Below the pieces are notes generated by a model. That model made no database searches, was not told the DNA's origin, and worked only from the letters and a program-made list of their open reading frames with translations. The translations under genes were made by a program, and so were the position numbers. 64,000 nucleotides of DNA from Leisingera sp. ANG-M7 (GTDB lineage Bacteria; Pseudomonadota; Alphaproteobacteria; Rhodobacterales; Rhodobacteraceae), in assembly GCF_000813965.1 (NCBI RefSeq), contig NZ_JWLI01000008.1, positions 62,001 through 126,000 on the forward strand, read 5' to 3'. Numbering within the stretch: position 1 is the stretch's first letter; the number at the start of each line of letters is the position of its first letter. Below are positions 726 to 25,520 of the stretch, one piece after another.

Positions 726-1301
726 TCAGTTGTCGGCTTGGCCGAGGTGAGCGCGCATTTCTTGAGGGGTGACGATCTGGCCATTGCGGGCCAGCCAACT
801 CAGCGCGCCTTGCTCCGGCCGGAAAAGCTCTGCCCTGTCGATCAGCGTTCCAGCCGGGTTTGCCAGGTACTCACCAATCAGATCGGGATTGGCGCTGAGG
901 GTCGAAATGATGTTTCCGGCCAGCTCACTGCCGCCGACACCGGCCAAGATGCCTGTTGTGGCGCTGTTGTTCGCGATGATGGCAACTACCTGCTTGGGCA
1001 TGAGCATGGCGGCATTCTCTGCGACCAGCTCCTGATAGTATTCGAGCCCCTTTTCGGTGATGCCATAGCCAGAGCCAGCTGGTTCGCCGTCGTCATTGAA
1101 CAGGCCGCGGTGAAAGTGGCAGAAGCCCCGGTCGGTCAGATCGCGCAGCAGAGCGCGCGCCAGATCCTTTGACACCCAGTCATTCATGAAGAAAGCCAGG
1201 CCATAAAATGTTTCCGTGGCGCCGAATGCGGCGTTCCCCTTCTCGACGATGCACTCGAGGATATGCCGGTCGAACATGCGGCGGGCGTTTTCGTAGCTCA
1301 T
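726..1301 (-). CDS. Phage hypothetical protein with winged-helix-like N-terminus
   Basis: A 191-residue protein whose start ATG (1,301) overlaps the stop of the methyltransferase gene (ATGA), with GAGGAA upstream, indicating translational coupling. Residues about 45-95 (SKDLARALLRDLTDRGFCHF...YGITEKGLEYYQEL) look like a winged helix-turn-helix with its wing. The rest is alpha-helical and Ala/Leu-rich. No catalytic motif is visible. It may be a DNA-binding partner of the methyltransferase or an independent early regulator. Confidence 0.75.
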   Translation of the reverse strand: MSYENARRMFDRHILECIVEKGNAAFGATETFYGLAFFMNDWVSKDLARALLRDLTDRGFCHFHRGLFNDDGEPAGSGYGITEKGLEYYQELVAENAAMLMPKQVVAIIANNSATTGILAGVGGSELAGNIISTLSANPDLIGEYLANPAGTLIDRAELFRPEQGALSWLARNGQIVTPQEMRAHLGQADN

Positions 1302-3034
1302 AATGCTGCATTCCTCTTCTGCTCGTGGGAGATTTTGATCCGGTCGAGGATCCAGCCGACGCAAGGCACCGCCATGCTGTTGCCAAGCGCTTTGTATTGG
1401 GGGCCGTCAGCGGCGGGTTTGCCGCGGTAGGTGATGGCGCAGTGATCGTCGGGGAAACCCTGAAGCCGGTGGCACTCTGTGGGCGTCAGACGGCGAACAG
1501 CCCAGGTATCAGCCAACGCCGGAGGATGCGCCCCGGCTGCAAGGGGATGGCATGGATCGCCGGGCTGCGGGTTTGAATAGTTCGCGGCGCTGGTGATCTG
1601 CGTGGTATCGAATGCAACGGCTTGGGCTGTGGTGCGCGCCTCCAGCGTGTAGGCGGCATCATCGGTGCGGAAGCCAGCGCCGTCAGGGCCCGCATCCGGG
1701 TTTTCGCAAACAGCCCGTTCTTGGATGGCAATCACCGCGTGACCGCCGGCGTTCTGGTGACTGCCCAGATGCCCCATCGATCGCAGCGGCGGCATCACGC
1801 CGGAAACATCGTTTTGAACCTCTGTGCCCTTGCAGTCGAAGGCGACAGGGACCAGCGCTCCTTGCTCGTGCGGAACCCGACTTGCGCTCTTGGCCATCCC
1901 TGCTGTCAAGGTGTGGGCAATCAACTGCGAATGGCCATGGTTTGCATCTTGGCCCGAAGCACCCTGAAGGCGCCCGTAGCTCGCATCCAGGGTTGCGCAT
2001 GTCTCCTGGATTAACCCTCCGTCGCAGTCGAATTCTGTTCCGAGCCCGCCACCGCCGTTGGTGCGCGCCGGGATGGTTCGAGAAACATCAGAAGGAGCCA
2101 GAACATGCGGTTTATCTCCGCCACCCTGTGAAGCCCGCAAAGCGGGGCTTATGGAACCGCTCAGCTCCGCGGTTCCTCCCTCATCGCGGCCACGGATTGC
2201 AACGCCCTGTGCAGCATGGGAGGCAGATCCTTGCCCCGTTTCTCGGCGCGGCGGAGAATCCCCGCGCAGGCGGTCGGGCTCAAGTAATACCGCCGCGGGA
2301 TCGACGCAGTTTCCAAAATCGATGACAACGAACACGCGACGGCGCCGCTGCGCCACTCCGAAGTATTGGGCGTCAAGAACGGCCCATGCTGCCCGTGCCC
2401 TTGGCCCCTGCACCATACCTTCACAAGGCCATTTGGGGCGGTGGTGGGGTTCCGCTGTTTCGAACTCTCCTGTGGGCTCGCCATCGTCTCCAAGGATTTC
2501 GATTTCGCCCCCCTTGTGCCATTTCCAGAAAGCGTTGGATTTTCCTCGCTTTGGCCGGGGGCTTGGTAGGAGGGCATCCACTGCGCCGACAAGCCCTCCC
2601 AAGAAGCACCCAAAGGCGTTTCCTTTGTCGGAGAGGACGCCGGGTACATTTTCCCAGAGGACAGCGAGTTTTCCATCAGGTCGAGCATCGACGATTGCAT
2701 GCAGTAGCTCCACAAACGTTAGGGTGAGGTTTCCTCGGTCGCCTTCCAGACCGGCGCGAAGGCCCGCGACCGAAAAATCCTGGCAGGGCGTGCCCGCGAC
2801 GACCAGCTCCGGTGCGGGTACGCCGCGCTGGCGCAGCAGCTCCGGGGTGATCTCGGTCATATCGCCCCACAGAAGCGGGTCACCCTGGTTGTGATCCTCC
2901 GGCAGCCGGTATCCGAAACGCTCCTGCAGAACCGCGCGGGGAAACGGCTCAATCTCCGACGCGAGGCGCCAATCCACCCACTGGGCAGCCATTTCAGGGG
3001 CGCCGATGCCGGAACAAAAAGTCATGCCAATCAA
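1298..3034 (-). CDS. Phage C5-cytosine DNA methyltransferase
   Basis: S-adenosylmethionine-dependent C5-cytosine methylation of DNA. The 578-residue protein shows motif I (FCSGIGAPE), motif IV with the catalytic Cys (GTPCQDFS, about residue 81-88), motif VI (ENVPG), motif VIII (QRRRRVFVV) and motif X (YKALGNSMAVP). Between VIII and X lies a long Gly/Ala-rich segment of about 270 residues with recurrent short units of the type TLxAxxGxxG...LV, as in some phage Dcm proteins. No partner endonuclease is evident, so it is probably for anti-restriction. The start is TTG 3,034 with GGAG ten bases upstream; ATG 3,025 is the alternative. Confidence 0.92.
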   Translation of the reverse strand: MIGMTFCSGIGAPEMAAQWVDWRLASEIEPFPRAVLQERFGYRLPEDHNQGDPLLWGDMTEITPELLRQRGVPAPELVVAGTPCQDFSVAGLRAGLEGDRGNLTLTFVELLHAIVDARPDGKLAVLWENVPGVLSDKGNAFGCFLGGLVGAVDALLPSPRPKRGKSNAFWKWHKGGEIEILGDDGEPTGEFETAEPHHRPKWPCEGMVQGPRARAAWAVLDAQYFGVAQRRRRVFVVIDFGNCVDPAAVLLEPDRLRGDSPPRRETGQGSASHAAQGVAIRGRDEGGTAELSGSISPALRASQGGGDKPHVLAPSDVSRTIPARTNGGGGLGTEFDCDGGLIQETCATLDASYGRLQGASGQDANHGHSQLIAHTLTAGMAKSASRVPHEQGALVPVAFDCKGTEVQNDVSGVMPPLRSMGHLGSHQNAGGHAVIAIQERAVCENPDAGPDGAGFRTDDAAYTLEARTTAQAVAFDTTQITSAANYSNPQPGDPCHPLAAGAHPPALADTWAVRRLTPTECHRLQGFPDDHCAITYRGKPAADGPQYKALGNSMAVPCVGWILDRIKISHEQKRNAAL

Positions 3035-3130
3035 GAGAGGGTGTCTCCAAAAATGCGGTTTCAGGGCGCGGCCGGTTGTCGTGAGTGGCGGCTGCCGCGC
3101 CCGGGCGGAGCGGGGGCCAGCCCGCGGGGA

Positions 3131-3550
3131 TCAAAGGGAGCCGGGGGAAGCACCCCCAGCCAGTTCAAGCGTCGGCGCCTCTTCAGCCTTCGCCTGGGGG
3201 AGTGTTTCGGGGGCAGGGGCCTGCCGCATCGCGTCTTCCGGCAGACCCTGCCCGTTATAGGGGCAGTCGACCCGGTGGTCGGTGGCGCGGCGGCTGAGAT
3301 CCATCTTGTGATGCCAGTCCGCCCAGCGAATCCAGTTATTCAGTGCCTCTTGGTGGCTCCACCCTTCACCGGTGATGCCGTGGATGGTTATCCGCCAGCG
3401 CTGGGCGTCCAAATCATTCCGGTCGCTGGGGTGTCGGCTGCCCTTGATCACGTGGGCACCGTTGGTGCGCAGCAGTGCCGCGCGCCAGAACGGGTTCCCA
3501 TTCTTGAGGCTTTGGGCGAGCGAATAGATTTCCTGGCTGGTCGCGGTCAT
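3131..3550 (-). CDS. Phage hypothetical protein
   Basis: A 139-residue protein whose ATG overlaps the stop of the preceding small gene by one base (TAATG). It contains a Trp-rich central part (GWSHQEALNNWIRWADWHHKMDLSRRA) and a Pro/Ala/Glu-rich tail that is probably disordered. No known domain recognised. It is the second gene of the leftward early operon after the presumed left operators. Confidence 0.65.
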   Translation of the reverse strand: MTATSQEIYSLAQSLKNGNPFWRAALLRTNGAHVIKGSRHPSDRNDLDAQRWRITIHGITGEGWSHQEALNNWIRWADWHHKMDLSRRATDHRVDCPYNGQGLPEDAMRQAPAPETLPQAKAEEAPTLELAGGASPGSL

Positions 3551-3777
3551 TAGGCGGCCCTTGCCGGATTGCGAAGGGTCGCCAGCTCTGCCCGGGCCGC
3601 GATCAGCTCGCCGCAGATATCCGGCAGGTACATGGACAGAATGGCCTGGTGCTCGTCGGAGATCTGGCCCATGGCCCGCAAAGGGTCGCTATGGGCCAGG
3701 TCGCGCAGAACGCTGTTCGGAACCGCCTCTGCCGGTGTGAGGGGCAGATTGATTGTCCTGGTCTGATCGTTCGTCAT
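3550..3777 (-). CDS. Phage hypothetical protein, first gene of left early operon
   Basis: A 75-residue, mostly helical, acidic protein without recognisable domain. Its ribosome-binding site (GGAGGAC) lies in the 3' arm of a perfect hairpin (3,783-3,804), and the palindromic operator-like sites at 3,812-3,869 lie immediately upstream, so it should be the first gene transcribed from the left early promoter. By position it corresponds to lambda N, but there is no arginine-rich antiterminator motif, so no such function is claimed. Confidence 0.65.
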   Translation of the reverse strand: MTNDQTRTINLPLTPAEAVPNSVLRDLAHSDPLRAMGQISDEHQAILSMYLPDICGELIAARAELATLRNPARAA

Positions 3778-3804: not shown

Positions 3805-3811
3805 TCACATT

Positions 3812-3869
3812 TCCACTTATAAAAGGATAAGTCAATCTATAAATGGACCACGGGCAATTTATAAATAGC
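3812..3869. promoter_or_regulatory. Putative left operator cluster (three sites)
   Basis: Three copies of a 16-bp motif spaced about 20 bp apart: TCCACTTATAAAAGGA (3,812), TCAATCTATAAATGGA (3,832) and a weaker GCAATTTATAAATAGC (3,854). Site 1 lies inside a perfect 18-bp palindrome, ACTTAT-N6-ATAAGT (3,815-3,832). They separate luxI from the left early operon and match sites near the repressor gene, so they resemble lambda OL. The third overlaps the 3' end of luxI. Confidence 0.65.
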
Positions 3870-4424
3870 CACCTTGCCGCTTCCCACACCTAAAAAGGGT
3901 GTTAACCGTTCGACCTGATAGCCAGCTGATCGGACGCCCAAGGATAGCTCGATTCCGCCAATTGCGATGTACTGATCTATTCTTGCGGCCCTTGCCTCTG
4001 CCATCATCCTTTCCACTGTGTATCGCAGGGCGGCCCGCTTCTCTAGCTTCGTAAGTGATGGACAGACCGTCAGCCTGGTTGCCTCCCAAACCCTTTCAGA
4101 AGAGGGTGGAACGAAACCGCTGCAAAGTTCTGGTGGAAGCGAAGGACTGAGACGGCCTAAGGCGGCGTCGAGAATCATGTAAGTTGAAGTGCCGAGGTTG
4201 GTGCTTGTCGGCAAGATCCTGGCACTTGCCGCAAGTTTTCCATTTCTCTCAGTCAGGCAGTATGAGGCATAAGGAGTGTCATATTGATCGGCTTCAAGTT
4301 CGCCGATTGTCGGTAATTGCCAGCGGTAGTTGTCAACAAAGAGCGCTTTTCTTAGCTGAAATTGTGCGCGCAAAAGTTGCTGCGGGATGCCGGTTGTCAG
4401 GCAGTTCGCCCAGTATGTATTCAT
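3837..4424 (-). CDS. luxI: LuxI-family acyl-homoserine-lactone synthase, phage-encoded
   Basis: Makes a diffusible N-acyl-homoserine lactone from S-adenosylmethionine and an acyl-ACP or acyl-CoA. The 195-residue length is typical. All invariant family residues occur at nearly canonical positions: R25, F29, W35, E44, D46, D49, R69, and E114/R117 in the WEATRL block. Residues 35-49 (WQLPTIGELEADQYD) and 67-73 (SARILPT) are diagnostic. The gene follows luxR by 75 bases on the same strand and its end overlaps an operator-like site. The start ATG is preceded by AGGGG, partly inside an inverted repeat. The acyl chain cannot be predicted from sequence alone. Confidence 0.93.
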   Translation of the reverse strand: MNTYWANCLTTGIPQQLLRAQFQLRKALFVDNYRWQLPTIGELEADQYDTPYASYCLTERNGKLAASARILPTSTNLGTSTYMILDAALGRLSPSLPPELCSGFVPPSSERVWEATRLTVCPSLTKLEKRAALRYTVERMMAEARAARIDQYIAIGGIELSLGVRSAGYQVERLTPFLGVGSGKVAIYKLPVVHL

Positions 4425-4431
4425 GATCGCC

Positions 4432-4452
4432 CCTTGCGTGTAGATAGCAAGG
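4432..4452. promoter_or_regulatory. 21-bp inverted repeat at the luxI ribosome-binding site
   Basis: CCTTGC-N9-GCAAGG is a perfect inverted repeat ending seven bases before the luxI start. On the reverse strand its 3' arm runs into the AGGGG Shine-Dalgarno. It could be an RNA hairpin controlling translation or a binding site for a dimeric regulator such as the adjacent LuxR. It does not match the classical lux-box CTG...CAG pattern. Confidence 0.4.
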
Positions 4453-4499
4453 TGACGATAGGAGCCGGACTAGCGGAATTCACTCATGTTTTAAATGGC

Positions 4500-5111
4500 C
4501 TAAATCACAGCCTTGCGGATCGCTGCAGACAGCAGGGCGGTGAAGTTCTTCGCGTGTTGGTGGTTTTTGCGAAGCGCTTCTCTTTTGTGAAAGTTGACCG
4601 TGCTAGTATCAATGTTCAATTCAAATGCGGCGTCTTCGGCAGTGGCACCATCTGCAATGAGGCGCAGGATTTCTTTCTGACGTTGCGTCAGTACAATCTG
4701 AGGTTCATCGGTTTTGGAAGCTTGAAGAGCTGCTAGGATAACTCTGGCTTCGTTGATTTCTGCATCAGAGGGGCGGCTGCTTGTTGCCAGCCCGGCAATG
4801 GCGCGTTCTCCGTCGACCTGTACAGAGATAACTATTCCATCGTTCATGCCGAAGTCGCGCGCTTGGGTTACGGCATTGTCTTCTGTGCTGCCTTCAACGT
4901 CCGACCATCTGACAGCGCCAAGATTCCGCACCCCAAAGCCTATGATCGGGTCATTGAAAATCAGCTTGTTAGCCCAATAGTGATCCTGCCAGGTTTGTTT
5001 GTAGGTGCAGAGGTGTTCTTTAGGTTGCCCGCTTTGATCGAACCCAAATCCGATAGCAACACCGTCGCCTGCAATCTCGTGCAGCCGAGCTATCAGTCTA
5101 TCTTGATCCAT
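4500..5111 (-). CDS. luxR: LuxR-family quorum-sensing receptor/regulator, phage-encoded
   Basis: An acyl-homoserine-lactone-responsive transcription factor. The N-terminal autoinducer-binding domain keeps the ligand-pocket residues W41, Y45, D54, P55 and W69, with spacings (13, 14) equal to TraR W57, Y61, D70, P71, W85. The C-terminal LuxR helix-turn-helix occupies about residues 139-203 (LTQRQKEILRLIADGATAEDAA...TSTVNFHKREALRK). At 203 residues it is somewhat shorter than most LuxR proteins, mainly at the N-terminus. It lies directly between the repressor and luxI genes on the same strand; two operator-like motifs lie upstream of its start. Confidence 0.92.
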   Translation of the reverse strand: MDQDRLIARLHEIAGDGVAIGFGFDQSGQPKEHLCTYKQTWQDHYWANKLIFNDPIIGFGVRNLGAVRWSDVEGSTEDNAVTQARDFGMNDGIVISVQVDGERAIAGLATSSRPSDAEINEARVILAALQASKTDEPQIVLTQRQKEILRLIADGATAEDAAFELNIDTSTVNFHKREALRKNHQHAKNFTALLSAAIRKAVI

Positions 5112-5133
5112 ACTCTACACTCTCTGGTTGATA

Positions 5134-5188
5134 TCGCTTTAAAACTGGACGATAGTCAGCGGAGCGAGGATATCAAGTTAAAAGTGGA
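5134..5188. promoter_or_regulatory. Two operator-like sites upstream of luxR
   Basis: TCGCTTTAAAACTGGA (5,134-5,149) and TCAAGTTAAAAGTGGA (5,173-5,188) each match the best immunity-region site, TCCATCTAAAAATGGA, at 12 of 16 positions. They lie 22-77 bases before the luxR start, in the 164-base gap behind the repressor gene, so luxR may have a repressor-controlled promoter of its own. No clear -35/-10 pair is visible. Confidence 0.5.
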
Positions 5189-5275
5189 TGGAACGAAACT
5201 TGTTTAGGAAATTTGAGCAGTTCAAGCGGCTAAACTCGAAGGATAGGCGAGCCGTACTTGATGAAATGGATCGAG

Positions 5276-5593
5276 CTATTGGTCAGGTTCAGGAAGAGCA
5301 GAAAGAGTGTCCATCAGAGCAAAGACAGCCCGCTGCCCACTTGCATCAAGGCGCTTAAACTTGTTGGCGAATTCCTCCATGTCGTTGTCTGGGGAGTCGC
5401 CGAACAAAAGAACAGCGAGGGATACTTCAAGCACCTCCGCCAATCCTTCAAGGGCGTCTATGGTTGGCGTGATCTTTCCATTGATCACGTCGGAGACGTA
5501 GTTTTTGTTCTTGCCTGCAGCTGTTCCAACGCGTGGCCGAGATAGGCCGCGCAGCTTGCAGTACTTGTCGAGTTGTTTCTGATACTCTGTCAT
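5276..5593 (-). CDS. CI-like phage repressor (helix-turn-helix only)
   Basis: A 105-residue XRE-type DNA-binding protein. Residues about 10-65 form the helix-turn-helix (LSRPRVGTAAGKNKNYVSDVINGKITPTIDALEGLAEVLEVS); the remaining 40 residues are probably a dimerisation helix. It is divergent from the Cro-like gene with operator-like sites between them, the standard immunity arrangement. It has no S24/LexA peptidase domain, so RecA-stimulated self-cleavage is not expected. No strong Shine-Dalgarno precedes ATG 5,593. Maintenance of lysogeny is inferred from position. Confidence 0.85.
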   Translation of the reverse strand: MTEYQKQLDKYCKLRGLSRPRVGTAAGKNKNYVSDVINGKITPTIDALEGLAEVLEVSLAVLLFGDSPDNDMEEFANKFKRLDASGQRAVFALMDTLSALPEPDQ

Positions 5594-5596: not shown

Positions 5597-5723
5597 TCAT
5601 TTTATAAAAGGATAGCTGGAACTTGGAAACCCAGCAAATTTGATAGGTAGCAGTTAGCGTCGCTTTATAACTTGACAAGCATCCATCTAAAAATGGAAAA
5701 AGGTATCCATCTAGAGAGGTGGA
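5597..5723. promoter_or_regulatory. Putative right operator region between repressor and cro-like genes
   Basis: Sites: TCATTTTATAAAAGGA (5,597), TCGCTTTATAACTTGA (5,660), perfectly palindromic TCCAT-N6-ATGGA (5,682-5,697), and a related ATCCATCT-N4-AGGTGGAT (5,705-5,724, one mismatch) that abuts the cro-like ATG and covers its Shine-Dalgarno. The last three are spaced 22-24 bp like lambda OR1-3. A TTGACA at 5,672-5,677 is a candidate -35 element; no convincing -10 element was found. Confidence 0.65.
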
Positions 5724-6907: not shown

Positions 6908-7110
6908 CCGAGCTAATCGTCGATAAGGTCGAGCGGCTTTGCCTGCTCACAGACGCGCACAAGGCACGCAGAGCGCATCGCAGCACCGCCCGCATCATGA
7001 AACGCCTGAACACCGTCACGGCCCGCATAGCGGCTGCAGAGGGCGGAACAGGCACCACAGAGGCCGCCCAGCGCTGGGCGGGTAATTCGAGCAGCAGGAG
7101 CCAAGCATGA
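6904..7110 (+). CDS. Phage hypothetical protein
   Basis: A 68-residue basic helical protein (VERLCLLTDAHKARRAHRSTARIMKRLNTVTARI). Its ATG overlaps the methyltransferase stop (ATGA) and its stop overlaps the next gene, so it is part of a tightly coupled early operon. No domain recognised. Confidence 0.65.
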   Translation: MTELIVDKVERLCLLTDAHKARRAHRSTARIMKRLNTVTARIAAAEGGTGTTEAAQRWAGNSSSRSQA

Positions 7111-8015
7111 GCCACAAGGCAGTGAGCTGGGCACTGGATCAGAGGCATTTGAAGCCCGCCCCCTGGGTGGTGCTGATCCAGCTGGCAGACAGGCACAACA
7201 AAGACACCCTGCGGTGTGACCCTGACCAGGTCACCCTGGCGGCGGACTGCAATATGTCCCGCGCCACGGTGAACCGGCACCTTGAGACGCTGGAAGAACT
7301 CGAGCTGATCCGCCGGGTTCCGCGCATCGATCCGCGCACCGGCAAGCCTCTTTCGACCTTCTACATTTTGGGCCTCAATTTCGACCGGCCCCCACACGTT
7401 GAAAACGCCGTGTCTCAAAATGAGACACGTGGAAAGCGGGGGCAAAAAGAGAACAAAACGGCGGGCCGTGTCTCAAATTGCGACACGGTGCCGTGTCTCA
7501 AAAATGGCGAAAACCGTGTCTCAAAAAACGCCGAAACCGTGTCTCAAAATGAGACACTAACCATTGTAAGAGAACCAGTAAGAGAACCTTGCGCGGCTTC
7601 CGCCCCGCACAAATCCGAAATTGATTTTGATGGTTTCTTTGCTGAGTTCGTCAGCGTCTATCCCCGGATGGGTGACCAGGAGGCGACCGAGGAATCGCTG
7701 AGGGAAGCGCTGGGCGATGGTGCTGACCCGAAAGAGATCCTGGCCGGTGCCCGGGCCTATGCGGTCGAGCAGGTCGGCAACAAGCCGCGTTTCATCAAGT
7801 ATTCCGAGAACTGGATCGACGAAAAGCGCTGGCGCCAGCATGTGACCGCGCCGCGGGAAAGCGTTGATCCGCAGAAGGTGCTGGAAGCGCGGGCGCAGGA
7901 AATCAGGGATCGCAAGCCTTGGGCGCGGACCATCAAGCCCAGCCAAGCGGGCGAGTGCATTGCCGCGGGGCTGGTTACAGCGGCGGACTGCGAAGCCGCG
8001 GGGATCAACGTATGA
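7107..8015 (+). CDS. Phage replication initiator-like protein (winged helix, iterons inside gene)
   Basis: A 302-residue protein with an N-terminal winged helix (about residues 20-85: LADRHNKDTLRCDPDQVTLAADCNMSRATVNRHLETLEELELI), a low-complexity linker coded by repeated DNA (about 100-152, repeated VSQNET/VSKNAE units), and a C-terminal helical domain (160-302). This arrangement parallels lambda O, whose origin iterons lie in the middle of the gene. It overlaps both neighbours by four bases. Initiator function is inferred from architecture, the iterons and the adjacent DnaA-like and GapR-like genes. Confidence 0.75.
   Translation: MSHKAVSWALDQRHLKPAPWVVLIQLADRHNKDTLRCDPDQVTLAADCNMSRATVNRHLETLEELELIRRVPRIDPRTGKPLSTFYILGLNFDRPPHVENAVSQNETRGKRGQKENKTAGRVSNCDTVPCLKNGENRVSKNAETVSQNETLTIVREPVREPCAASAPHKSEIDFDGFFAEFVSVYPRMGDQEATEESLREALGDGADPKEILAGARAYAVEQVGNKPRFIKYSENWIDEKRWRQHVTAPRESVDPQKVLEARAQEIRDRKPWARTIKPSQAGECIAAGLVTAADCEAAGINV
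7410..7557. repeat. Iteron array, putative phage replication origin
   Basis: Five copies of CGTGTCTCAAA start (at GTGTC) at 7,410, 7,468, 7,493, 7,516 and 7,539; the last three have an exact 23-bp period. Copies 1 and 5 are the perfect palindrome GTGTCTCAAAATGAGACAC, copy 2 has one arm mismatch, and copies 3 and 4 are half-sites. All lie in the linker of the putative initiator gene. A tandem TAAGAGAACC pair follows at about 7,567-7,588. Confidence 0.75.
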
Positions 8016-16262: not shown

Positions 16263-16442
16263 GGCGGGGCGTCACGTGGGTAGCAGGATACGCAGAAAAT
16301 TATGTGTGCGTGCCGCCGGGGATAGGGGTTGTTTATTATTTAGCTCGCGCAAGCGGCTGAAAGAAAACACCTAATCCGGCTCAAGAAGTAAAAATGCGCG
16401 CCTGTGCGCAGTGGTACAGTTTTCTATTTGATTGGGGCGCAA

Positions 16443-17003
16443 GTGGCTGGAAAGAATAAGAAATCGCGCGGCAGAGAAGTAAACCGCGCCGAGCTTGCCG
16501 AATTCAACGGCGTCTCGCTGCCGACCATCGACGATTGGGTGCGGCGCGGCTGCCCGGTGGTGCAGCGCGGCGGGCGGGGGCGGGCCTGGATTTTCAACAC
16601 GGCTGAGGTTCGCAGCTGGCGGGACGACGATATCCGTGCCCAGTCGAGCCATACCACGAACGCAAACAAAGACGAACTGCAGCTGAGAAAACTGGCAGCG
16701 GAAACGGAACAAGCGGAACTCGATCTGGCCAAGGCCAAAGACGAGGTTGTCCCGGTCGAGCAATACGAGCGCGCGCTCACGAAAGCTTTTGGCGAGGTGC
16801 GGGCCAGCCTGCGAAACGTGCTGCCCCAGCGGGCGGCGCGCCGTCTCATGGGGGAAACTGACGAAACCCGCTTCAAGGACGTTATGCGCGAGGAAGTCGA
16901 TCATGCCCTTGCGGGACTGGCCGACCGGGACCTTGTCGAAGAAACGGATCTGTTTCTTGGCGAAAATGAAGACGGCGAAGGCGAGGGGGCGGAAGGTGAG
17001 TGA
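16443..17003 (+). CDS. Terminase small subunit (Nu1-type)
   Basis: Recognises phage DNA for packaging. The 186-residue protein begins at GTG 16,443 (GGGGCG upstream; an earlier GTG at 16,404 lacks a good Shine-Dalgarno). The N-terminal winged helix (VNRAELAEFNGVSLPTIDDWVRRGCPVVQRGGRGRAWIFNTAEVRSWR) is typical of lambda Nu1, followed by a coiled coil (LQLRKLAAETEQAELDLAKAKDEVV) and an acidic C-terminus that would contact the large subunit. The 180 bases before it hold no other gene. Confidence 0.9.
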   Translation: MAGKNKKSRGREVNRAELAEFNGVSLPTIDDWVRRGCPVVQRGGRGRAWIFNTAEVRSWRDDDIRAQSSHTTNANKDELQLRKLAAETEQAELDLAKAKDEVVPVEQYERALTKAFGEVRASLRNVLPQRAARRLMGETDETRFKDVMREEVDHALAGLADRDLVEETDLFLGENEDGEGEGAEGE

Positions 17004-18952
17004 ACGCCCGGGCTGATTTTTCCAACGCCCGCGCGGTTGTCCGCGCGACCCGCCGCGCGCGGGAATTCTTGCGGCCACCGCCGAATCTGAAACCCTCCGA
17101 ATGGGCTGAGGCGAATATCAATATCCCGGTCGGCAATGCCGTTCCGGGCAAAATGCGGTTTGATAATGCCCCGTATCAGAGGGAAGTGGTCGACATGACC
17201 GCGAACCCGCGGTGCGACCGTATCACGCTGATGTGGGGCGCCCAGGTCGGGAAGACACAAACCGCACTTGCCGCGCAGGCCTACCGGATCGGGTTCAACC
17301 CTGTTTCCCAAATGATGATGCAGCCCAGCCAGGGCGACCTGACAACCTGGCTCGAAACCAAGTTCAACCCGATGGTCGACGCGAACGAAGGACTGCAGAA
17401 TGTTTTGGCCAAACCGCGCGGCCGGGACGGGGTGAACAACCAGCGCATGAAGAGTTACCCGGGCGGGTTTCTCATGTTCAGCTGGGCAGGATCGCCGAGA
17501 ACGATGCGCGGCCGGTCGGCGCCGTTCATCGTGTGCGATGAGACAGACGGCTATGACCGCACAACCGAGGGGCACCCGGTCGGGCTTCTGTGGCAGCGTG
17601 CGGCTACCTTTGGTGATCAAAAGCTCCTGCTGGAAATCAGCACGCCGACCATCAAGGGTGAGAGCTGGATCGAGACCGCCTTTCTGGAAGGCGACCAGCG
17701 CTATTTCCATGTGGTCTGCCCACACTGCGGGCATATCCAAACCCTGAAATGGTCGCAGGTTACCTGGTGCAAAGACGAAAACGGCGAGCACCTGCCGGAG
17801 ACGGCCACCTATCTTTGCGAGGGAGAGGGCTGCGGCACCGCCTGGAATGACGGGCAGCGCTGCGCCGCGATCCGCAACGCGGAGAAACAGGGCGGCGGCT
17901 GGATTGCTAAGAAGCCATTTCGCGGCCACGCCTCCTATCACTTGTCCGAACTCTACAGCTGCTTTCGCTACCTGAAAGACATTGTGCAGTCCTTCCTGGA
18001 CAAGAAGGCAGCGAACGACCTGCAGACCTTTGTGAACGTGTCGCTGGCCGAGACCTGGGAAGAAGAGGGCGACCAGCTCGAGTCCTCTGTGCTGATGGCG
18101 CGGGCCAAGGAATTCACGGCGCCGGTCCCGATGGGGGCGGGCGTTTTGACGGCTGGCATTGACATGCAGAATGACCGGCTCGAGGTGGAAATCGTCGGCT
18201 GGGGGCTGGGCGACGAGTCCTGGTCTGTCGACTACAAGGTTCTGTGGGGCGATCCGCTGCAGCAGGACGTATGGGACGAACTGGACGAACTGCTTGCCGA
18301 TACCTGGGAGCATGAAAGCGGCGCCGAGCTTCGGATCTCCGCCGCATGCCTGGACACCGGCGGCGAGGGCGGGCGGACACAGGCAGCCTATGACTATGCC
18401 CGGAAACGTCTGGGGCGGAAGGTCTGGGCGATCAAGGGGGTTGGCGGCTGGGGGCGCCCGATTGTGACCCAGCCCAGCAAAGTAAAGCAGCGCGGGGTTC
18501 GTCCGGTTTGGCTGCATTCGATTGGCGTGGACGAGGCGAAAGTCGTAGTCGCCCAGAATGCGCGCATCCCTGAGCCCGGCCCGGGGCATTGCCATTTCCC
18601 GCTTGGCCGCGACCCGGCCTGGTATGACATGTTCACCGCGGAAACCCTGCGAACCAAATACATCAAGGGTTTCCCTATCCGGGAATGGCACAATGTCCGC
18701 CCCCGGAATGAAGCCTTCGACTGCCGTGTTTATGCATATGCCGCGCTGCGGATTCTGCGCCCTAACATCAAGCGCGTTTTGAAGGGGCTGGAAGAACAGG
18801 GCCAGGAGATTGAGCAGGAGGCCGAAACCGTTGCCGAGGCAGAGGCCGGGGAAAATCCGCCAGAGGAACTGCGCGCGCCCACGGAGGAAACTCCGAAAAA
18901 GCGCCGACGTTTGAAGACCAAGAAAAGAAGGCGGCGCCGCAGCGACGAATAG
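17000..18952 (+). CDS. Terminase large subunit (lambda GpA family)
   Basis: ATPase and endonuclease that packages DNA into the prohead. The 650-residue protein has Walker A-like MWGAQVGKTQTAL (about residue 79), Walker B FIVCDETD (about 176), a Cys-rich insert (CPHCG...CEGEGCG) and a C-terminal nuclease region (GIDMQNDRLEVEIVGWG with catalytic Asp). The very end is Lys/Arg-rich. Start is GTG overlapping the small-subunit stop. One copy of the 17-bp motif lies in its C-terminal linker. Confidence 0.95.
   Translation: MNARADFSNARAVVRATRRAREFLRPPPNLKPSEWAEANINIPVGNAVPGKMRFDNAPYQREVVDMTANPRCDRITLMWGAQVGKTQTALAAQAYRIGFNPVSQMMMQPSQGDLTTWLETKFNPMVDANEGLQNVLAKPRGRDGVNNQRMKSYPGGFLMFSWAGSPRTMRGRSAPFIVCDETDGYDRTTEGHPVGLLWQRAATFGDQKLLLEISTPTIKGESWIETAFLEGDQRYFHVVCPHCGHIQTLKWSQVTWCKDENGEHLPETATYLCEGEGCGTAWNDGQRCAAIRNAEKQGGGWIAKKPFRGHASYHLSELYSCFRYLKDIVQSFLDKKAANDLQTFVNVSLAETWEEEGDQLESSVLMARAKEFTAPVPMGAGVLTAGIDMQNDRLEVEIVGWGLGDESWSVDYKVLWGDPLQQDVWDELDELLADTWEHESGAELRISAACLDTGGEGGRTQAAYDYARKRLGRKVWAIKGVGGWGRPIVTQPSKVKQRGVRPVWLHSIGVDEAKVVVAQNARIPEPGPGHCHFPLGRDPAWYDMFTAETLRTKYIKGFPIREWHNVRPRNEAFDCRVYAYAALRILRPNIKRVLKGLEEQGQEIEQEAETVAEAEAGENPPEELRAPTEETPKKRRRLKTKKRRRRRSDE
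18848..18866 (+). repeat. Dispersed 17-bp motif, copy 2
   Basis: GGGGAAAATCCGCCAGAGG inside the acidic linker near the 3' end of the terminase large-subunit gene (encodes GENPPEE). Confidence 0.6.
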
Positions 18953-18961
18953 GGCGAAAAC

Positions 18962-19492
18962 GTGGGCGCAATTCCTGCCGAAATCGGTGCCGGGGTAACC
19001 TTCCGGCAAACAGTTTGCCTGCCGGTTCATCCGGCGCCGGATTGGTCGGTTACGCTGATCATGCGCGGCGCCAGTCAAATCGACTTGCCCGGAACAGGGC
19101 AGGCAGAGAACCACGAGCTGCACGCGCTCGCCAGCGTCACTAAGGATTGGTTGCCGGGACACTACCGGTATGAGCTGCGGGCCGTTTCGGGTGACGATGT
19201 GGTGACCGTGGAAACGGGCGAAGTGCGTGTCGCTCCTGATCTTATGGCCCAGGCCGCAGGCTATGACGGGCGCGACCATGTGCGCCGGGTTCTGGATGCT
19301 ATCGAGGCGGTGATCGAGAACCGCGCAACCATCGACCAGCAGAGTTACCAGATCAACAACCGCTCGCTGCAGCGAACCCCTCTGGGCGAGCTTCTAAAGC
19401 TGCGCACCCAGTACCGTGCCGAACTTGCTGGCAAGAAGGCCGCCAAGAACGGGCGCAGGTTCGGGCGCATGATCAAGGTGCGAATGACATGA
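18962..19492 (+). CDS. Phage head protein, probable head-tail joining (gpW-position)
   Basis: A 176-residue protein between terminase and portal, the position of lambda gpW. The N-terminal 100 residues are beta-rich (TVCLPVHPAPDWSVTLIMRG...HYRYELRAVSGDDVVTVETGEVRV); the C-terminus is helical (HVRRVLDAIEAVIENRATIDQQSYQINNRSLQRTPLGELLKLRTQYRAEL). Start GTG 18,962; its end overlaps the portal start by four bases. Confidence 0.75.
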   Translation: MGAIPAEIGAGVTFRQTVCLPVHPAPDWSVTLIMRGASQIDLPGTGQAENHELHALASVTKDWLPGHYRYELRAVSGDDVVTVETGEVRVAPDLMAQAAGYDGRDHVRRVLDAIEAVIENRATIDQQSYQINNRSLQRTPLGELLKLRTQYRAELAGKKAAKNGRRFGRMIKVRMT

Positions 19493-21102
19493 TCCTGAAT
19501 TGGTTCAGCAGATCGGCGCCAGCTGCCGACCCGGAACCGCAGCGCCGCGCTCCGCCAATGCTGTCGCCGCCCCGCCGCCGCGGCACGCGCATGTTTCAGG
19601 CAGCCGAAACCGACCGGCTTACAACCGGTTGGACAAGCAACCCAATGCCAGCGGATCAGATCATTCGCCGGAATTGGCGGGTGCTGGTCGCGCGTTCGCG
19701 GGAGCAGTCTGCCAATAACGACTATGCCAAAGCCTTCAAGCGCAGCGCCCGGCGCAACCTGATTGGCCAGCGCGGCTTTGTTCTGCAGGCCCAGGCACGT
19801 GACGGAAAGGGCAAGCTCGACAGCGGTGCGAATACAGCCTTGGAACGCGCTTGGGGTGACTGGTGCCGCGGGCGGAACTGCGATGTGAAAGGGCGTCGGT
19901 CTTTCCGGCAGATCCAGAAAACTCTGGTCAATGGCCTCTGCACTGACGGCGAGTTTATGGTGCGCTTTGTCTATGGGCGCGATGCCGGGCCGTGGGGATT
20001 TGCTTTGCAGGTTCTCGATCCGGTGCTCTGCCCGGTGGATTTTGACGAAGACCGGCGGCCAGGCGGCGGCTTCATCCGCGCTGGCATCGAATACACCAAG
20101 CTTGGCCGCCCAGTTGCCTACTACTTCACCACCTTGGACCAGTCCCAGGCCGACTATCATTATTCTGGCCGGGCCTTTGTCCGGGTGCCTGCAGACGAGA
20201 TCGTCCATTGGTTCGAAGAGGATTTTGTCGGCCAGAAACGCGGTTTGCCGTGGATGGCGACGGCACTGCTGCGCATGCGGCAGCTGGGGGATTTTGAAAA
20301 AAGCGCCCTGAACAATGCCCGGGAAAGCGCTAAGAAATTCGGCGTGATTGAATGGGCCGAAGGATACGGGCCCTCCGACGCCGATGAAGAAGACGAAGAA
20401 GACGGCGACGAGCTGCGCGAATTTGAGATCGAAAGCGAGGACGGCGTCTATCAGGAATTGCCTATGGGCGCGCGCCTGAAAGGCACGCAAACCGCATATC
20501 CAAATGGCGAAATGGCGGTGTTTTCCAAGCACCAGTTGCGCGGCATCGCAACCGGTTTGGGCGTAGCCTACAACGACCTGGCCAATGACCTTGAGGGAGT
20601 GAACCTTTCGAGCATCCGGCATGGTGTGCTGAGCGAGCGAGATCACTGGCAGGAACTGCAGGAAAGCCTGATCGAGGCCTTTGCCATCCCGGTATATGAG
20701 CGCTGGCTCGAGGTGGCCCTCCTGCGGCAGCGGATCACCCTGGATAACGGTTCAGCCCTTCCTGCGGCAAAGCGGTCGAAGTTCCTTACCGTGATGTTCC
20801 AAGCCCGCCGGTGGCAGTGGATCGACCCAGCAAAGGACGTGAAGGCCGACGCTGACGCGGTCGAAAACATGTTCAAGTCCCGTGGTCAGGTGATCCGGGA
20901 ACGCGGCCGGGACCCGCGGGAAGTCTATGCGGAGATCGCGGCAGATATCGAAGACATGCGCGCCGCCGGAATCTCCGAGGAAATCATCACGGCGCTAGTC
21001 ACAGCAAAATCAAAAGGAGGGCAGGGCAATGGCAAGCAAGCCAACCCAGCAGCCGGAAAAGCCGGTGAAGGGGCCGACGAAGGAAATCAGGACGGCAGCT
21101 GA
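19489..21102 (+). CDS. Portal protein (lambda family)
   Basis: Dodecameric portal through which DNA enters the head. A 537-residue lambda-B-type protein: characteristic RSREQSANNDYAKAFKRSARRNLIGQRGFVLQ (about residues 71-105), a DGEFMVRF segment, EIVHWFEEDFVGQKRGLPWMATAL, and IATGLGVAYNDLANDLEGVNLSSIRHGVLSERDHW. An acidic insertion (DADEEDEEDGDEL, about 300) is notable. Its last 74 bases overlap the protease-capsid gene in another frame. Confidence 0.93.
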   Translation: MILNWFSRSAPAADPEPQRRAPPMLSPPRRRGTRMFQAAETDRLTTGWTSNPMPADQIIRRNWRVLVARSREQSANNDYAKAFKRSARRNLIGQRGFVLQAQARDGKGKLDSGANTALERAWGDWCRGRNCDVKGRRSFRQIQKTLVNGLCTDGEFMVRFVYGRDAGPWGFALQVLDPVLCPVDFDEDRRPGGGFIRAGIEYTKLGRPVAYYFTTLDQSQADYHYSGRAFVRVPADEIVHWFEEDFVGQKRGLPWMATALLRMRQLGDFEKSALNNARESAKKFGVIEWAEGYGPSDADEEDEEDGDELREFEIESEDGVYQELPMGARLKGTQTAYPNGEMAVFSKHQLRGIATGLGVAYNDLANDLEGVNLSSIRHGVLSERDHWQELQESLIEAFAIPVYERWLEVALLRQRITLDNGSALPAAKRSKFLTVMFQARRWQWIDPAKDVKADADAVENMFKSRGQVIRERGRDPREVYAEIAADIEDMRAAGISEEIITALVTAKSKGGQGNGKQANPAAGKAGEGADEGNQDGS

Positions 21103-23149
21103 CCTGGTCGGCCGTTCGCTGACCCGGGAACTGACCGCGGAGCAGATCAACGCGCGCGGCGAAGGCGGCGGCCTGCGGCGCATGGGTGAAGTGCGCGAGA
21201 TCGACGAGGGCAAGCGCACGGTCGAACTCGCATTTTCCAGCACCCTGCCGGTACGCCGCTGGTTCGGAGAGGAAGTTCTTTCGCACGAAGCAGATGCCGT
21301 GAACCTTGAGCGGCTGAACGACGGTGGCGCGTTGCTGGTCAGCCATGACTGGGATGATCAGATCGGGGTGGTGGAAAGTGCGCGGGTTGACGCTGACGGC
21401 GTCGGCCGGGCGATGGTCCGGTTTGGTCAGAGCGTGCGGGCCCAGGAGATCTTTCAGGACGTGGTCGACGGTATCCGGCGCCATGTTTCGGTGGGTTACA
21501 AGGTTCACACCATCAAAGAGGAAATTCGCGAGGGCCAGCCCAACCTGGTCACCGTGACCCGGTGGGAGCCTTTCGAGATTTCAATCGTGGCTGTTCCGGC
21601 CGACCCAAGCGTCGGCGTGGGCCGCGAATTGGAAATTCCGCCAGAGGGCGGCGAGGCCGCAGGCGGGCAGACTGCGGGGGAAGATGCAGGCGCGGCGGAA
21701 CGGTCCGCGGGCAATCAGCAAAGGGAAAACGAGATGAAAACGATCATCACCCGCGATGCGCACGGCAACAAGGTCCGCGCAAAAGTGGATGAAAACGGCA
21801 ATATCGTCGAAGTGCTGGAAGTGCTGGAACGTGCCGATAGCGGCGCAGCTGGCGGCGCTGGCGGTAACGATGGCGGTCAGAGCGAGGCGGCGCTGGTAGA
21901 GCGTGGCCGTGAACAGGAGCGCACCCGTGTACGCGAGCTGAACGAACTGGGCGCCGAGTACGGTGCCCCGGAGCTGGCCCAGCGGATGATTGCGGAGGGG
22001 CGCGGCGTTCAGGAAATGCGCGACGGGCTGCTTGATCACCTGCATCAGCGCAGCACCGAAAACCGCCAGATTACCGAGCGCGCTGGCGTCGGTCTGACCG
22101 ATGGCGAAGCGGACCAGTTCTCGTTCCTGCGCGCTATCCGGGCTTTGGCCAACCCGACCGACCGGGCGGCCCAGGAAGCCGCAGCCTTTGAATTCGAGGC
22201 GTCCGACGCTGCTGCGGAAGCCCAGGGCCGGGACGCCCAGGGGATCATGGTGCCGATTGACGTGCTGATGCGTGCGCCGCTCAATACCGGCAGCGGCGGT
22301 GCGACGGCTGCAGACACCGGTGGCAACGCCATTGCAAACCCGCTGCTGACTCAGAGCTTTATCCAGATGCTGCGCAATCAGACAATTCTGCTGCGCTTGG
22401 CGACCCCGCTTATGGGGCTTGTCGGCAACCCGGATATTCCGACACAGGAAGGCGGAGCCACCGGCTACTGGATTGGTGAAGACGACGAGGCGGCCGAGGA
22501 TCTGCTGAGCCTGGGCCAGCGTCAGTTCTCTCCGAAGACCGTGGCGGCCTATTCGGAGATCACCCGGCGCACCCTGAAACAGACCAGCATGGATATCGAG
22601 GCGCTGGTCCGCAGTGACCTTGCCCTCGCGACTGGCACCTCCCTCGACTATGCCGGGTTCTACGGAACCGGCACCGGTGATCAGCCGTTGGGCATTGCCA
22701 ACACCAACGGTGTGAACGTGGTGGATTTCGGCGGCGCGGCCTCCGGCGGCGGGACCGCAATGCCCACCTGGAAAGAAGTGATCCAGATGGAAAGCGACAT
22801 TGCAGCTGCGAATGCAGATGTGAACCGCATGGCCTATGTCCAGAACGCCAAAATGCGCGGCCACTTCAAGAGCACCCAGAAGTTCGATGGCACCAACGGC
22901 TCGCCGATCTGGGAGAACGACAACACCGTGAACGGCTACCGCGGCGAGGTCACCAACCAGATCAAGGACGGCGACGTCTTCCACGGCGATTTCGGCAACG
23001 TCCTGGTCGGCATGTGGGGCGGGCTCGATATCACCGTCGACCCCTATACCCACAGCCGCCGCGGCCGCCTGCGGATCGTGTGCATGCAGGACGCTGACTA
23101 TGTTCTGCGCCACCCGGCGGGCCTCTGCTACGGCACCGACGCCAGCTAA
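21029..23149 (+). CDS. Prohead protease-major capsid fusion (HK97 family)
   Basis: One 706-residue frame holds both head maturation functions. Residues about 45-205 are an HK97-type prohead protease (VELAFSSTLPVRRWFGEEVLSHE, catalytic His in LVSHDW, Ser in RRHVSVGYKV). After a Gln/Gly-rich linker comes a scaffold-like coiled-coil region (285-370) and the HK97-fold capsid protein (about 395-706: IMVPIDVLMRAPL, GYWIGEDDEAAEDLLSLGQRQFSPKT). A strong AAGGAGGG precedes ATG 21,029. A possible internal start is ATG 21,733. In-frame fusion is known in some phages. Confidence 0.92.
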   Translation: MASKPTQQPEKPVKGPTKEIRTAADLVGRSLTRELTAEQINARGEGGGLRRMGEVREIDEGKRTVELAFSSTLPVRRWFGEEVLSHEADAVNLERLNDGGALLVSHDWDDQIGVVESARVDADGVGRAMVRFGQSVRAQEIFQDVVDGIRRHVSVGYKVHTIKEEIREGQPNLVTVTRWEPFEISIVAVPADPSVGVGRELEIPPEGGEAAGGQTAGEDAGAAERSAGNQQRENEMKTIITRDAHGNKVRAKVDENGNIVEVLEVLERADSGAAGGAGGNDGGQSEAALVERGREQERTRVRELNELGAEYGAPELAQRMIAEGRGVQEMRDGLLDHLHQRSTENRQITERAGVGLTDGEADQFSFLRAIRALANPTDRAAQEAAAFEFEASDAAAEAQGRDAQGIMVPIDVLMRAPLNTGSGGATAADTGGNAIANPLLTQSFIQMLRNQTILLRLATPLMGLVGNPDIPTQEGGATGYWIGEDDEAAEDLLSLGQRQFSPKTVAAYSEITRRTLKQTSMDIEALVRSDLALATGTSLDYAGFYGTGTGDQPLGIANTNGVNVVDFGGAASGGGTAMPTWKEVIQMESDIAAANADVNRMAYVQNAKMRGHFKSTQKFDGTNGSPIWENDNTVNGYRGEVTNQIKDGDVFHGDFGNVLVGMWGGLDITVDPYTHSRRGRLRIVCMQDADYVLRHPAGLCYGTDAS
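21631..21647 (+). repeat. Dispersed 17-bp motif, copy 3
   Basis: GGAAATTCCGCCAGAGG in the linker between the protease and capsid parts (encodes EIPPEGG). Confidence 0.6.
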
Positions 23150-23217
23150 CTGGCGCTAATCCTGCGCTCTGGCCCGAACCGGGCCGGAGGGTCTATTCCC
23201 CAATCGAGGATTGAAAA

Positions 23218-23409
23218 ATGAGCGACCAGAAAAAGGCTCCGAAATCGAAATACACCGTGACCAGTGCTTTCATCTGGGACGGCGGTATCAAGAAGCCCAA
23301 AGACACCGTCGAACTGACCAAGACTGAAGCGCATGGCCTGATCAAGCGCGGCAAGATCGAAGAGCCGAAACGCGGCCGGGGCAAACAGGCCGAAGCCAGC
23401 GACGACTGA
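23218..23409 (+). CDS. Small head-associated protein
   Basis: A 63-residue basic protein (KYTVTSAFIWDGGIKKPKDTVELTKTEAHGLIKRGKIEEPKRG) found behind capsid genes in many phages, possibly a cement or head-completion factor. A GGCCCG-AAC-CGGGCC stem lies in the 68-base gap upstream. GAGGA precedes the ATG. Confidence 0.7.
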   Translation: MSDQKKAPKSKYTVTSAFIWDGGIKKPKDTVELTKTEAHGLIKRGKIEEPKRGRGKQAEASDD

Positions 23410-23723
23410 TGGCCGGGCCTGCCTGGGAAACCCCCGACGCCTTCCTGCAGCTTGACGATTTTGCCACCTTGGCAACCGTCACGCCGCGGGAAGGCGTTTC
23501 CCGTGATATCAGGGGCATTTTTGACGAACCCTATTTCAACACGCAAATCGGGGAATACGAGGCCGACGCGGCCCAGCCGCGGCTGACCTGCAAGGCGTCG
23601 GACGTTGCCGATTTGTCGGCTAAGGATGGGGTCGAGATCGACGGCCGGTCCTATCTGCTGGTGACCGGGCCGCAGGCTGATGGAACTGGTTTTGCGGTGC
23701 TGATCCTGGCGGCGGTAGACTGA
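23409..23723 (+). CDS. Head-tail joining protein (FII-like position)
   Basis: A 104-residue protein of mixed alpha/beta character (AFLQLDDFATLATVTPREG...VEIDGRSYLLVTGPQADGTGFAVLILAAVD) resembling the head-tail connector encoded between capsid and gpZ-type genes in lambda-like phages. Start overlaps the preceding stop (TGATG). Confidence 0.75.
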   Translation: MAGPAWETPDAFLQLDDFATLATVTPREGVSRDIRGIFDEPYFNTQIGEYEADAAQPRLTCKASDVADLSAKDGVEIDGRSYLLVTGPQADGTGFAVLILAAVD

Positions 23724-23727
23724 AACC

Positions 23728-24276
23728 ATGCTGGCTTTTGATTTTGACGCCCGCGAGCTGAAGCGCATCGCCGATGAGTTCAAGGCCAGCGAAAAAGACC
23801 TGCAATATGCCTATTCGCGGGCATTGCGCAGGACCGCCCAGACCATGAAAACCCGCGCCCGCAAAGGCCTGCGCACAGAGCTGAAGTTGCGCACCGCCGC
23901 GGAGTTGCGCCGCCGCCTGCAGGGTTTCAGGTTCAAGCGTGGAAAAGGCCTGGGGGAAGTCAAAATGTGGTTTGGCCTGAACGATATGCGGGTGTCGGCT
24001 TTCAAGGGCCGGGCGTCCCTAACTGGCGCCGGTGCGGCCTTTGCGGGCCAAGATTTCCCCGGTGCGTTCATCGCCAGGAACGCCAAAGGCCGACCGACTG
24101 TCATGAGGCGCGCAACGCAAAAGGCCTACCCGATACGGGAGGAACGTATGGCCATCGAAGACAAGGCACAGATCTACATCGAGGACGAGGTTTTCGACGA
24201 GATCGAAGAGGTGTTTTTCAAGCACTTTCGGGCGGAGGTGCGGGCGCGCACGCTCTACAACGTGGGGAAAGGGTAA
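23728..24276 (+). CDS. Minor tail protein, gpZ-like (tail completion)
   Basis: A 182-residue basic, helical protein (DARELKRIADEFKASEKDLQYAYSRALRRTAQTMKTRARKGLRTELKLRTAAELRRRL) with a C-terminal helical acidic segment. The pattern and position match lambda gpZ family proteins, which help complete the head-proximal end of the tail. Confidence 0.8.
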   Translation: MLAFDFDARELKRIADEFKASEKDLQYAYSRALRRTAQTMKTRARKGLRTELKLRTAAELRRRLQGFRFKRGKGLGEVKMWFGLNDMRVSAFKGRASLTGAGAAFAGQDFPGAFIARNAKGRPTVMRRATQKAYPIREERMAIEDKAQIYIEDEVFDEIEEVFFKHFRAEVRARTLYNVGKG

Positions 24277-24279
24277 GGC

Positions 24280-24816
24280 ATGGCCAACAATCTCGACTTG
24301 GACGCATTGCACGAGGCTATCCTCGATAAGATACGAGATCAGTTCCCGGTACTTCTGACCGTCGAAGACTATGAAGCCGACCGCAAGAAACTGAACGTGC
24401 CAGCAGTTCTGCTCGAGCTGGTTGATATGGAAGCGTCTCCCGATGGTGATGGCGGCAGCGGGCAGCTGCCGGTGGTGAGCAAGTGGGCCGCACGGGTGGT
24501 GTTCGGTTTCGAGCAGGTGAACGTCAAGCGTGAGGTCCGCAAGCTGGCCGGTGCGCTGGGAGTTTTTGTGCATCAGAACCGCTGGGGGCAGCCGGTGAGC
24601 CCAGCTAGTGTCACAATCATCGGGCCGGATGCATTCGACCCTGATTTTGACCGGTTTGAAGTCTGGGCGGTTGAATGGGATCAAAAGCTTGATCTGGGCG
24701 AAAACGTCTGGACCGGCGAGGGTGTTACCCCGGGTGTGGTAAAGATCGGTTTCGCGCCCAAAATCGGGCCAGGCAACGAGGCAGATTATAGCGATCTGCC
24801 AGGCGGTGCCGCATGA
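24280..24816 (+). CDS. Tail terminator-like protein
   Basis: A 178-residue protein (LDALHEAILDKIRDQFPVLLTVEDYEADRKKLNVPAVLLELVDMEAS...WAARVVFGFEQVNVKREVRKLAGALGVFVHQNRWG) with the alpha/beta layout of tail-terminator proteins. It lies at the junction of head and tail genes. Assignment is by position and pattern. Confidence 0.65.
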   Translation: MANNLDLDALHEAILDKIRDQFPVLLTVEDYEADRKKLNVPAVLLELVDMEASPDGDGGSGQLPVVSKWAARVVFGFEQVNVKREVRKLAGALGVFVHQNRWGQPVSPASVTIIGPDAFDPDFDRFEVWAVEWDQKLDLGENVWTGEGVTPGVVKIGFAPKIGPGNEADYSDLPGGAA

Positions 24817-25238
24817 GCTACAGTGCGGCGCGTGGTGAGCAAATGCGCGAGGGGATCGTCCGTTTTGGCGTGGTGACCGCGGTTGATGCAGGGGCCGCTC
24901 GCGCAAAGGTGTCGTTTGGTGGCGATAGTGTGAGTGGCTGGCTGCCTTGGAAAGCGGAAAGGGCTGCCGCAATCTCAGTCTGGGCTCCGGTGAGCATTGG
25001 CGAACAGGTGATCGTCGTCTCCGAATCCGGCGACACTGCAAATGGCGTCATTCTCGGTTCGGTGTTCAGTGACGGCAACCCTGGCGCCGGATCGAGTGAG
25101 GCCATGCACAGGGTAAAAATCGGGCTGTCCTCGATCACGATCACAGCGAGCGCGATTACACTTTCGAGCAATGGATCGACGCTGGTACTGGATGCAGCGG
25201 GGATCTCGCTCAATGGTGCAGGGATTGACTTGAACTGA
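24813..25238 (+). CDS. Baseplate assembly protein V / spike
   Basis: A 141-residue P2 gpV-like protein: N-terminal OB-fold-like region (VRFGVVTAVDAGAARAKVSFGGDSVSGWLPW...GEQVIVVSESGDTANGVILGSVFS) and a C-terminal beta-helix of short repeats (SSITITASAITLSSNGSTLVLDAAGISLNGAGIDLN), as in a membrane-piercing spike. Overlaps both neighbours. Confidence 0.88.
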   Translation: MSYSAARGEQMREGIVRFGVVTAVDAGAARAKVSFGGDSVSGWLPWKAERAAAISVWAPVSIGEQVIVVSESGDTANGVILGSVFSDGNPGAGSSEAMHRVKIGLSSITITASAITLSSNGSTLVLDAAGISLNGAGIDLN

Positions 25239-25504: not shown

Positions 25505-25520
25505 GGAAAACCGCCAGAGG
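25504..25520 (+). repeat. Dispersed 17-bp motif, copy 4
   Basis: GGGAAAACCGCCAGAGG in the 48-base gap between the PAAR and gp25-like genes. Confidence 0.7.

Follow-up and report, generated by a model that had tools for sequence, protein, structure and literature searches.

Does a complete quorum-sensing pair lodged in the immunity region of a prophage set the choice between lysis and lysogeny, or does it alter the host and stand outside the phage's decision? The locus analysed here raises this question. It lies in a 64-kb window, the whole stretch of DNA under study, which is part of contig C57 of a Rhodobacterales genome of 4.58 Mb. A contig stretch matches plasmids of Leisingera and Phaeobacter at 83-86% across roughly 30% of its length, too little to assign the host to a genus. 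On the minus strand of a prophage, the genes for an XRE repressor, LuxR and LuxI follow one another in this order, and all three ORFs are open (Table 1). We read the module as an xre-luxR-luxI switch by which the phage uses quorum sensing to choose between lysis and lysogeny, with a probability of about 80%.

LuxI scored 33.2 bits against the Pfam family Autoind_synth (cut-off 24) and matched phrog_31881 over its full length (E 4e-70). Residues R25, F29, W35, D46, D49, R69, E114 and R117 align with LasI and make up the conserved LuxI set (R, F, W, D, D, R, E, R). The receptor scored 51.6 bits for Autoind_bind and 39.7 bits for GerE, and matched RhlR, SdiA and TraR. The residues W, Y, D and P that line the ligand pocket are present as W41, Y45, D54 and P55 in its alignment with RhlR. 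The initial annotation had stated that both proteins retain their key residues, and the alignments agree with this. The module stretch has a G+C content of 0.51, below that of the rest of the window. The divergent 92-aa ORF, a putative hth gene, found no match in Pfam or PHROG, but homologues lie at the matching place in two related records, L158 (54% identity) and L159 (60%). It is followed on its 3' side by an N-6-type DNA methyltransferase-like ORF and then by the gene for the replication initiation protein.

Table 1. Features of the prophage immunity region and its surroundings (window coordinates)
Feature	Position	Strand	Evidence
Leftward genes past luxI: two small ORFs and a cytosine methylase	1298..3777	-	Pfam DNA_methylase
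Presumed leftward promoter, -35 TTGACT (3835-3830)	3807..3847	-	TTGAC and site conserved; site test p = 0.007
luxI, acyl-homoserine-lactone synthase, 195 aa	3837..4424	-	Autoind_synth (Pfam), phrog_31881, LasI alignment
luxR, autoinducer-binding activator, 203 aa	4500..5111	-	Autoind_bind and GerE (Pfam)
Presumed luxR promoter: TTGATA (5176-5171), 16 bp, TATCGT (5154-5149)	5134..5188	-	Hexamer conservation; site test
xre, repressor-like HTH protein, 105 aa	5276..5593	-	HTH_3, 33.9 bits (Pfam)
XRE-type site over presumed xre transcript start, adjoining start codon	5597..5612		Site scan; kept in L158 and L159
Candidate lux box in xre promoter (PLysogeny)	5629..5648	-	Partly conserved in L158 and L159; dyad by eye
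Two XRE-type sites (5660-5675, 5682-5697) at hth promoter	5660..5697		Site scan, alignment
Divergent ORF, hth in cro position, 92 aa	5719..5997	+	Position; homologues in L158 and L159
Replication initiation protein, first rightward operon	7107..8015	+	phrog_270, E 7e-23
Packaging and virion genes: terminase, head, sheath, tape measure, tail	16404..35544	+	Late-gene matches
attR, 59-bp tRNA-Ser 3'-end copy	35630..35688		Exact repeat; attL left of window

The surrounding element is a prophage of about 37.2 kb, since the 3' end of a tRNA-Ser(TGA) gene recurs as an exact 59-bp repeat at C57:60402-60460 (attL) and at attR. The tRNA gene and a tyrosine integrase gene (L042:18540-19538) lie to the left of the window. 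The late genes include those for a 706-aa head protein and a gpD-like tail protein. Among phage records, vB_EcoM-ep3 and its kin are close to the backbone, with identities of 61.8% for the terminase and 65.1% for the sheath. Serratia phage MQ-4 and Pseudomonas phage ZRG1 rank highest and differ only slightly from vB_EcoM-ep3. IMG/VR contains the prophage as UViG_2690316282_000003, identical over 13885 of 13885 bases. Within the prophage there is also a DNA-invertase-like gene (13287-13931). An invertible segment there was considered and rejected, the inverted repeats nearby being weak (16-19 nt, 78-89% complementary). Two minus-strand ORFs, 440-784 and 11864-12136, encode proteins that look alike by eye.

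The immunity region of lambda reads cI-rexA-rexB-OL, so that the slot after the repressor holds rexAB, and the lambda repressor has a self-cleaving S24 domain. The window shares with lambda a repressor followed by two genes, a leftward operator-promoter and a divergent cro-like gene. It differs in that LuxR and LuxI replace RexA and RexB, that XRE-type sites precede luxR and that the repressor matched HTH families only in Pfam, where no peptidase (S24) domain was found. The close likeness to lambda that had been proposed is not supported: the repressor shows no peptidase domain in Pfam, the slot has no rex genes, and the virion genes are those of a vB_EcoM-ep3-like myovirus. What does stand is the placing of the three genes, which ORFs and Pfam matches confirm as consecutive on one strand, and of the sender-receiver pair inside the immunity operon, between the repressor and the leftward promoter, as gene order and sites indicate.

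A 16-bp near-palindrome, TCCA-N8-TGGA, occurs at 3812, 3832, 5134, 5173, 5597, 5660 and 5682. When the plus strand of the whole window was scanned for TCCANTTATAANTGGA with up to 3 mismatches, seven of the eight places found lay in 3812-5697 and the eighth at 50131, against an expectation of 0.05 sites in 3701-5800 by Markov resampling. Because this consensus was derived from the same sequence, the independent support is the conservation of the sites in L158 and L159. The operator-like sites noticed earlier at the end of luxI are thus real, being clustered and conserved in both records. At the hth promoter, a -35 hexamer TTGACA (5672-5677) is kept in L158 and L159; the -10 is not clear. The presumed luxR promoter is flanked by XRE-type sites (5173-5188 and 5134-5149; site test p < 1/300), and its two hexamers are identical in the window, L158 and L159, with spacers of 16, 16 and 17 bp. 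In the presumed leftward promoter, one XRE-type site lies in the spacer (3812-3827) and a second over the luxI stop codon (3832-3847); L158 and L159 keep TTGAC with a site directly behind it, and the -10 is not conserved. Both records have an additional site past the luxR stop codon, which appears degenerate in the window by eye.

Relatives of the module were sought in genomes and viral records. LuxI found matches at E ≤ 1e-10 in 253 of 390 sampled genomes of the order, the best besides its own copy reaching 39% identity and 101 bits (own copy, 431). In IMG/VR, 13 loci matched the LuxI alignment query: the own copy, L158, L159 and ten at 29-39% identity. L158 is the nearest (xre 64%, luxR 72%, luxI 65%), and no LuxI found besides the own locus exceeds its 65%; L159, a metagenome relative, follows (xre 58%, luxR 69%, luxI 53%), with an in-frame stop after 100 codons of its luxI (L159:10001-10588). 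The pair is therefore not a chance insertion, since it has homologues in other prophage records, and these viral LuxI copies are closer to that of the window than are the three other LuxI of the host (25-38% identity over 97-177 residues). One of those three (contig C5; L045:9333-11213) belongs to a second xre-luxR-luxI set, which adjoins an integrase and a viral-type DNA polymerase; no operator copies were detected there in the site test described below.

Among 112 LuxI ORFs in the loci examined, a count that includes duplicate loci, LuxR lies upstream in 64 and both LuxR and XRE in 18, one of these being the copy in the window. The profiles for XRE and LuxR used in this search were built from seven of the same modules and are hence biased toward them. 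In one of the modules (L108:4806-10567, an uncultured Pelagimonas), the genes adjoin a Mu-type transposase (phrog_310). Another, in a single contig of Roseibium litorale (Hyphomicrobiales, Stappiaceae; L077:8265-10522), comprises an ORF in the hth position, xre, luxR and luxI, and has genes for terminase, tail and replication nearby. In a LuxI tree of 109 rows, the 17 marked module LuxI required 4 changes, compared with 16.0 in shuffles (0 of 500 as low). A single origin of the module LuxI is not supported, since the well-supported branches require at least 3 changes; several long branches meet in this tree and that of the window is among those flagged. L159 is absent from the tree because of its in-frame stop.

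Module and backbone come in different combinations. In the L160 record, the backbone is close to that of the window (terminase 87% and sheath 84% identical), but its module is another one, with an XRE unrelated by BLAST, a LuxR of 26% and a LuxI of 36% identity. Conversely, L158 carries a module of the window type in a 40-kb record, possibly a fragment, without a terminase or sheath match, and L159 combines the module with a related backbone (terminase 64%). By these comparisons, the module behaves as an exchangeable cassette.

This mixing is consistent with the account of modules swapped as units given by Bunsick et al. in a July 2026 preprint (PMC13345283), and the window module is a new example of the system described there. 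Phage A and Phage B, two prophages of Phaeobacter inhibens T5, have hth|xre-luxR-luxI modules, and experiments on these showed that LuxR together with autoinducer drives lysogeny. The xre-luxR-luxI promoter is on in lysogens and requires both luxR and luxI; the cognate lactone switches it, and inhibition induces the prophage (PMC13345283). XRE is needed for PLysogeny in Phage A and modestly lowers it in Phage B. The preprint sorts LuxI into types A to J at 80% identity, describes the modules as cassettes that Roseobacter prophages exchange and that do not occur outside the Roseobacter clade, and discusses, as a model only, an idea related to the block on superinfection that had been suggested for the window. 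By its count, 53 of 93 Roseobacter prophages have luxI, which corrects our starting view of the arrangement as rare or undescribed. The window shares with Phages A and B the gene order and strands, the divergent hth, a Rhodobacterales prophage and cassette exchange, a likeness judged by gene order and description. An ep3-related backbone is common to the window prophage and Phage B, and the Pelagimonas module has a Mu-type transposase neighbour as Phage A does (PMC13345283).

Because the same gene order was tested in those prophages, we read the window module as a switch for lysogeny that responds to the number of lysogens, and by this analogy the suggestion of a phage-made density signal that sets lysis or lysogeny is probably right (PMC13345283). 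We infer the regulatory signs, the ligand, the promoter starts and XRE as the binder of the sites as follows. In lysogens, LuxI would make an acyl-homoserine lactone, and lactone-bound LuxR would activate the xre-luxR-luxI promoter. XRE would close two promoters, that of the divergent hth (lytic) gene and the leftward one past luxI; it would also hold the luxR promoter shut and perhaps limit its own. Abundant signal would mean many lysogens around and thus favour lysogeny, and loss of the signal would let the lytic genes start.

An alternative is that luxR and luxI are lysogenic-conversion genes, carried in a rex-like slot and altering the host outside the phage decision. The slot is indeed that of rexAB in lambda. 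A phage lactone could also reach the host's three further LuxI and five further LuxR-like matches, and cross-talk of the Phage A lactone has been shown (PMC13345283). We consider this reading unlikely, because the homologous gene order is kept on different backbones and hth and xre move together with the pair, a candidate lux box lies in the xre promoter, and both luxR and luxI were needed for the xre promoter in the tested prophages (PMC13345283). Somewhat less probable again is a circuit of the opposite sign, in which signal-bound LuxR would promote lysis. Phage VP882 uses such logic with a host signal, according to the introduction of the same preprint; the sender gene of the window, however, lies in the lysogeny operon, and both tested modules of this order promote lysogeny (PMC13345283). 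That the pair is a remnant no longer working in the prophage, as the LuxI score of just 33 bits against Pfam and the lack of a known product might suggest, is very improbable given three open ORFs, retained residues, exact att sites and the presence of late genes.

A lysis-lysogeny switch that counts lysogens has a counterpart in the arbitrium of Bacillus phages, in which a phage-made peptide signal is read through AimR. The window would likewise rely on a phage-made signal, with lactone and LuxR in place of peptide and AimR. Bunsick et al. compare arbitrium with the phage luxI-luxR modules (PMC13345283). LuxR-type receptors are also borne by other phages (Silpe and Bassler 2019, PMC6456758), the initial annotation naming those of Aeromonas and Pantoea, but there the phage has the receptor only and the host is the sender.

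An operon that needs its own product raises the question of where the first LuxR comes from, and the operator map makes this question testable. We examined whether the sites by luxR and after luxI recur in other modules. Near-palindromes of 16 bp were taken from the 200 bp before xre and sought elsewhere, with 300 Markov shuffles as reference; 17 of the 18 modules entered, L076 being left out. The gaps measure 156-293 bp between xre and luxR and 19-80 bp between luxR and luxI. In the xre-luxR gap, 11 of 17 modules have a site of their own type (p ≤ 0.01), and in 10 of these 11 it ends 12-29 bp before luxR. The luxR-proximal site was not significant in the other six (L163, p = 0.203; L168, 0.663; L045, 1.0; L074, 0.117; L077, 1.0; L108, 0.093), although L163 has a similar site at the position matching its sisters L162 and L164. 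Sites in the 150 bp after luxI were found in 13 of 17 modules (p ≤ 0.02), including the Roseibium module L077, which has none near luxR. As a control, luxR coding stretches of gap length gave 0 of 17 at p ≤ 0.01 and 2 of 17 at p ≤ 0.05 (L159 and L163).

The site differs between modules and takes three forms, TCCA..TGGA, TCACC..GGTGA and TCATA..TATGA. When gaps were swapped between modules, whose types were labelled by eye, sites reached p ≤ 1/60 in 11 of 17 own pairs and 17 of 30 pairs of one type, against 24 of 242 pairs of different types. A stricter initial test, loosened after those sequences had been seen, gave p = 0.050 for the gap of the window and left four modules with no candidate site. 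As a sample the modules are not independent, L162-L164 being sisters and several others of the same type, so the count amounts to about five types and not to 11 separate events.

These sites suggest a circuit in two stages. The gene luxR would have its own promoter between XRE sites, open in a newly infected cell without XRE and shut by XRE in lysogens. Receptor and synthase would then be made at once and the ambient signal read, and only afterwards would the LuxR-driven xre promoter be turned on and commit the cell to lysogeny. A separate luxR promoter would supply the first LuxR and so solve the start-up of such a self-dependent operon. In lambda, CII and PRE play this start-up part. We put forward the two-stage reading of the modules tentatively, at slightly under even odds. 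Unrelated XRE families with unrelated operators would then keep the same layout, which would amount to a general rule in the design of phage quorum sensing and fill the role of CII and PRE. In its main text, the preprint treats the three genes as one operon, mentions no second promoter and uses none of the terms 'operator', 'internal promoter' or 'lux box' (PMC13345283); the window has XRE-type sites both by luxR and after luxI.

In the literature covered, which takes in few subscription journals, luxI-luxR pairs in prophage switches are described only in PMC13345283. The present analysis adds the cassette exchange around this module, the operator map and the Roseibium prophage module, which extends the host range outside the Roseobacter clade. 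The window provides a second lineage-specific example of a phage whose lysis-lysogeny switch contains a complete sender-receiver circuit; its LuxI is at most 65% identical to the other copies found. Among 50,697 annotated phage records, tblastn gave 6 matches for LuxI and 18 for LuxR, all below 60% identity. One Acinetobacter 'phage' record with lasI and sdiA was set aside as bacterial DNA, since host metabolic genes surround it, and the human-gut record MT835580 has, by eye, no clear xre before its luxR-luxI stretch. In the isolated Rhodobacter phage RcCWillis (OP009268.1; L171:3938-4444), a gene for a 169-aa 'hypothetical protein' that scores 41 bits for Autoind_synth (cut-off 24) sits downstream of the annotated immunity repressor.
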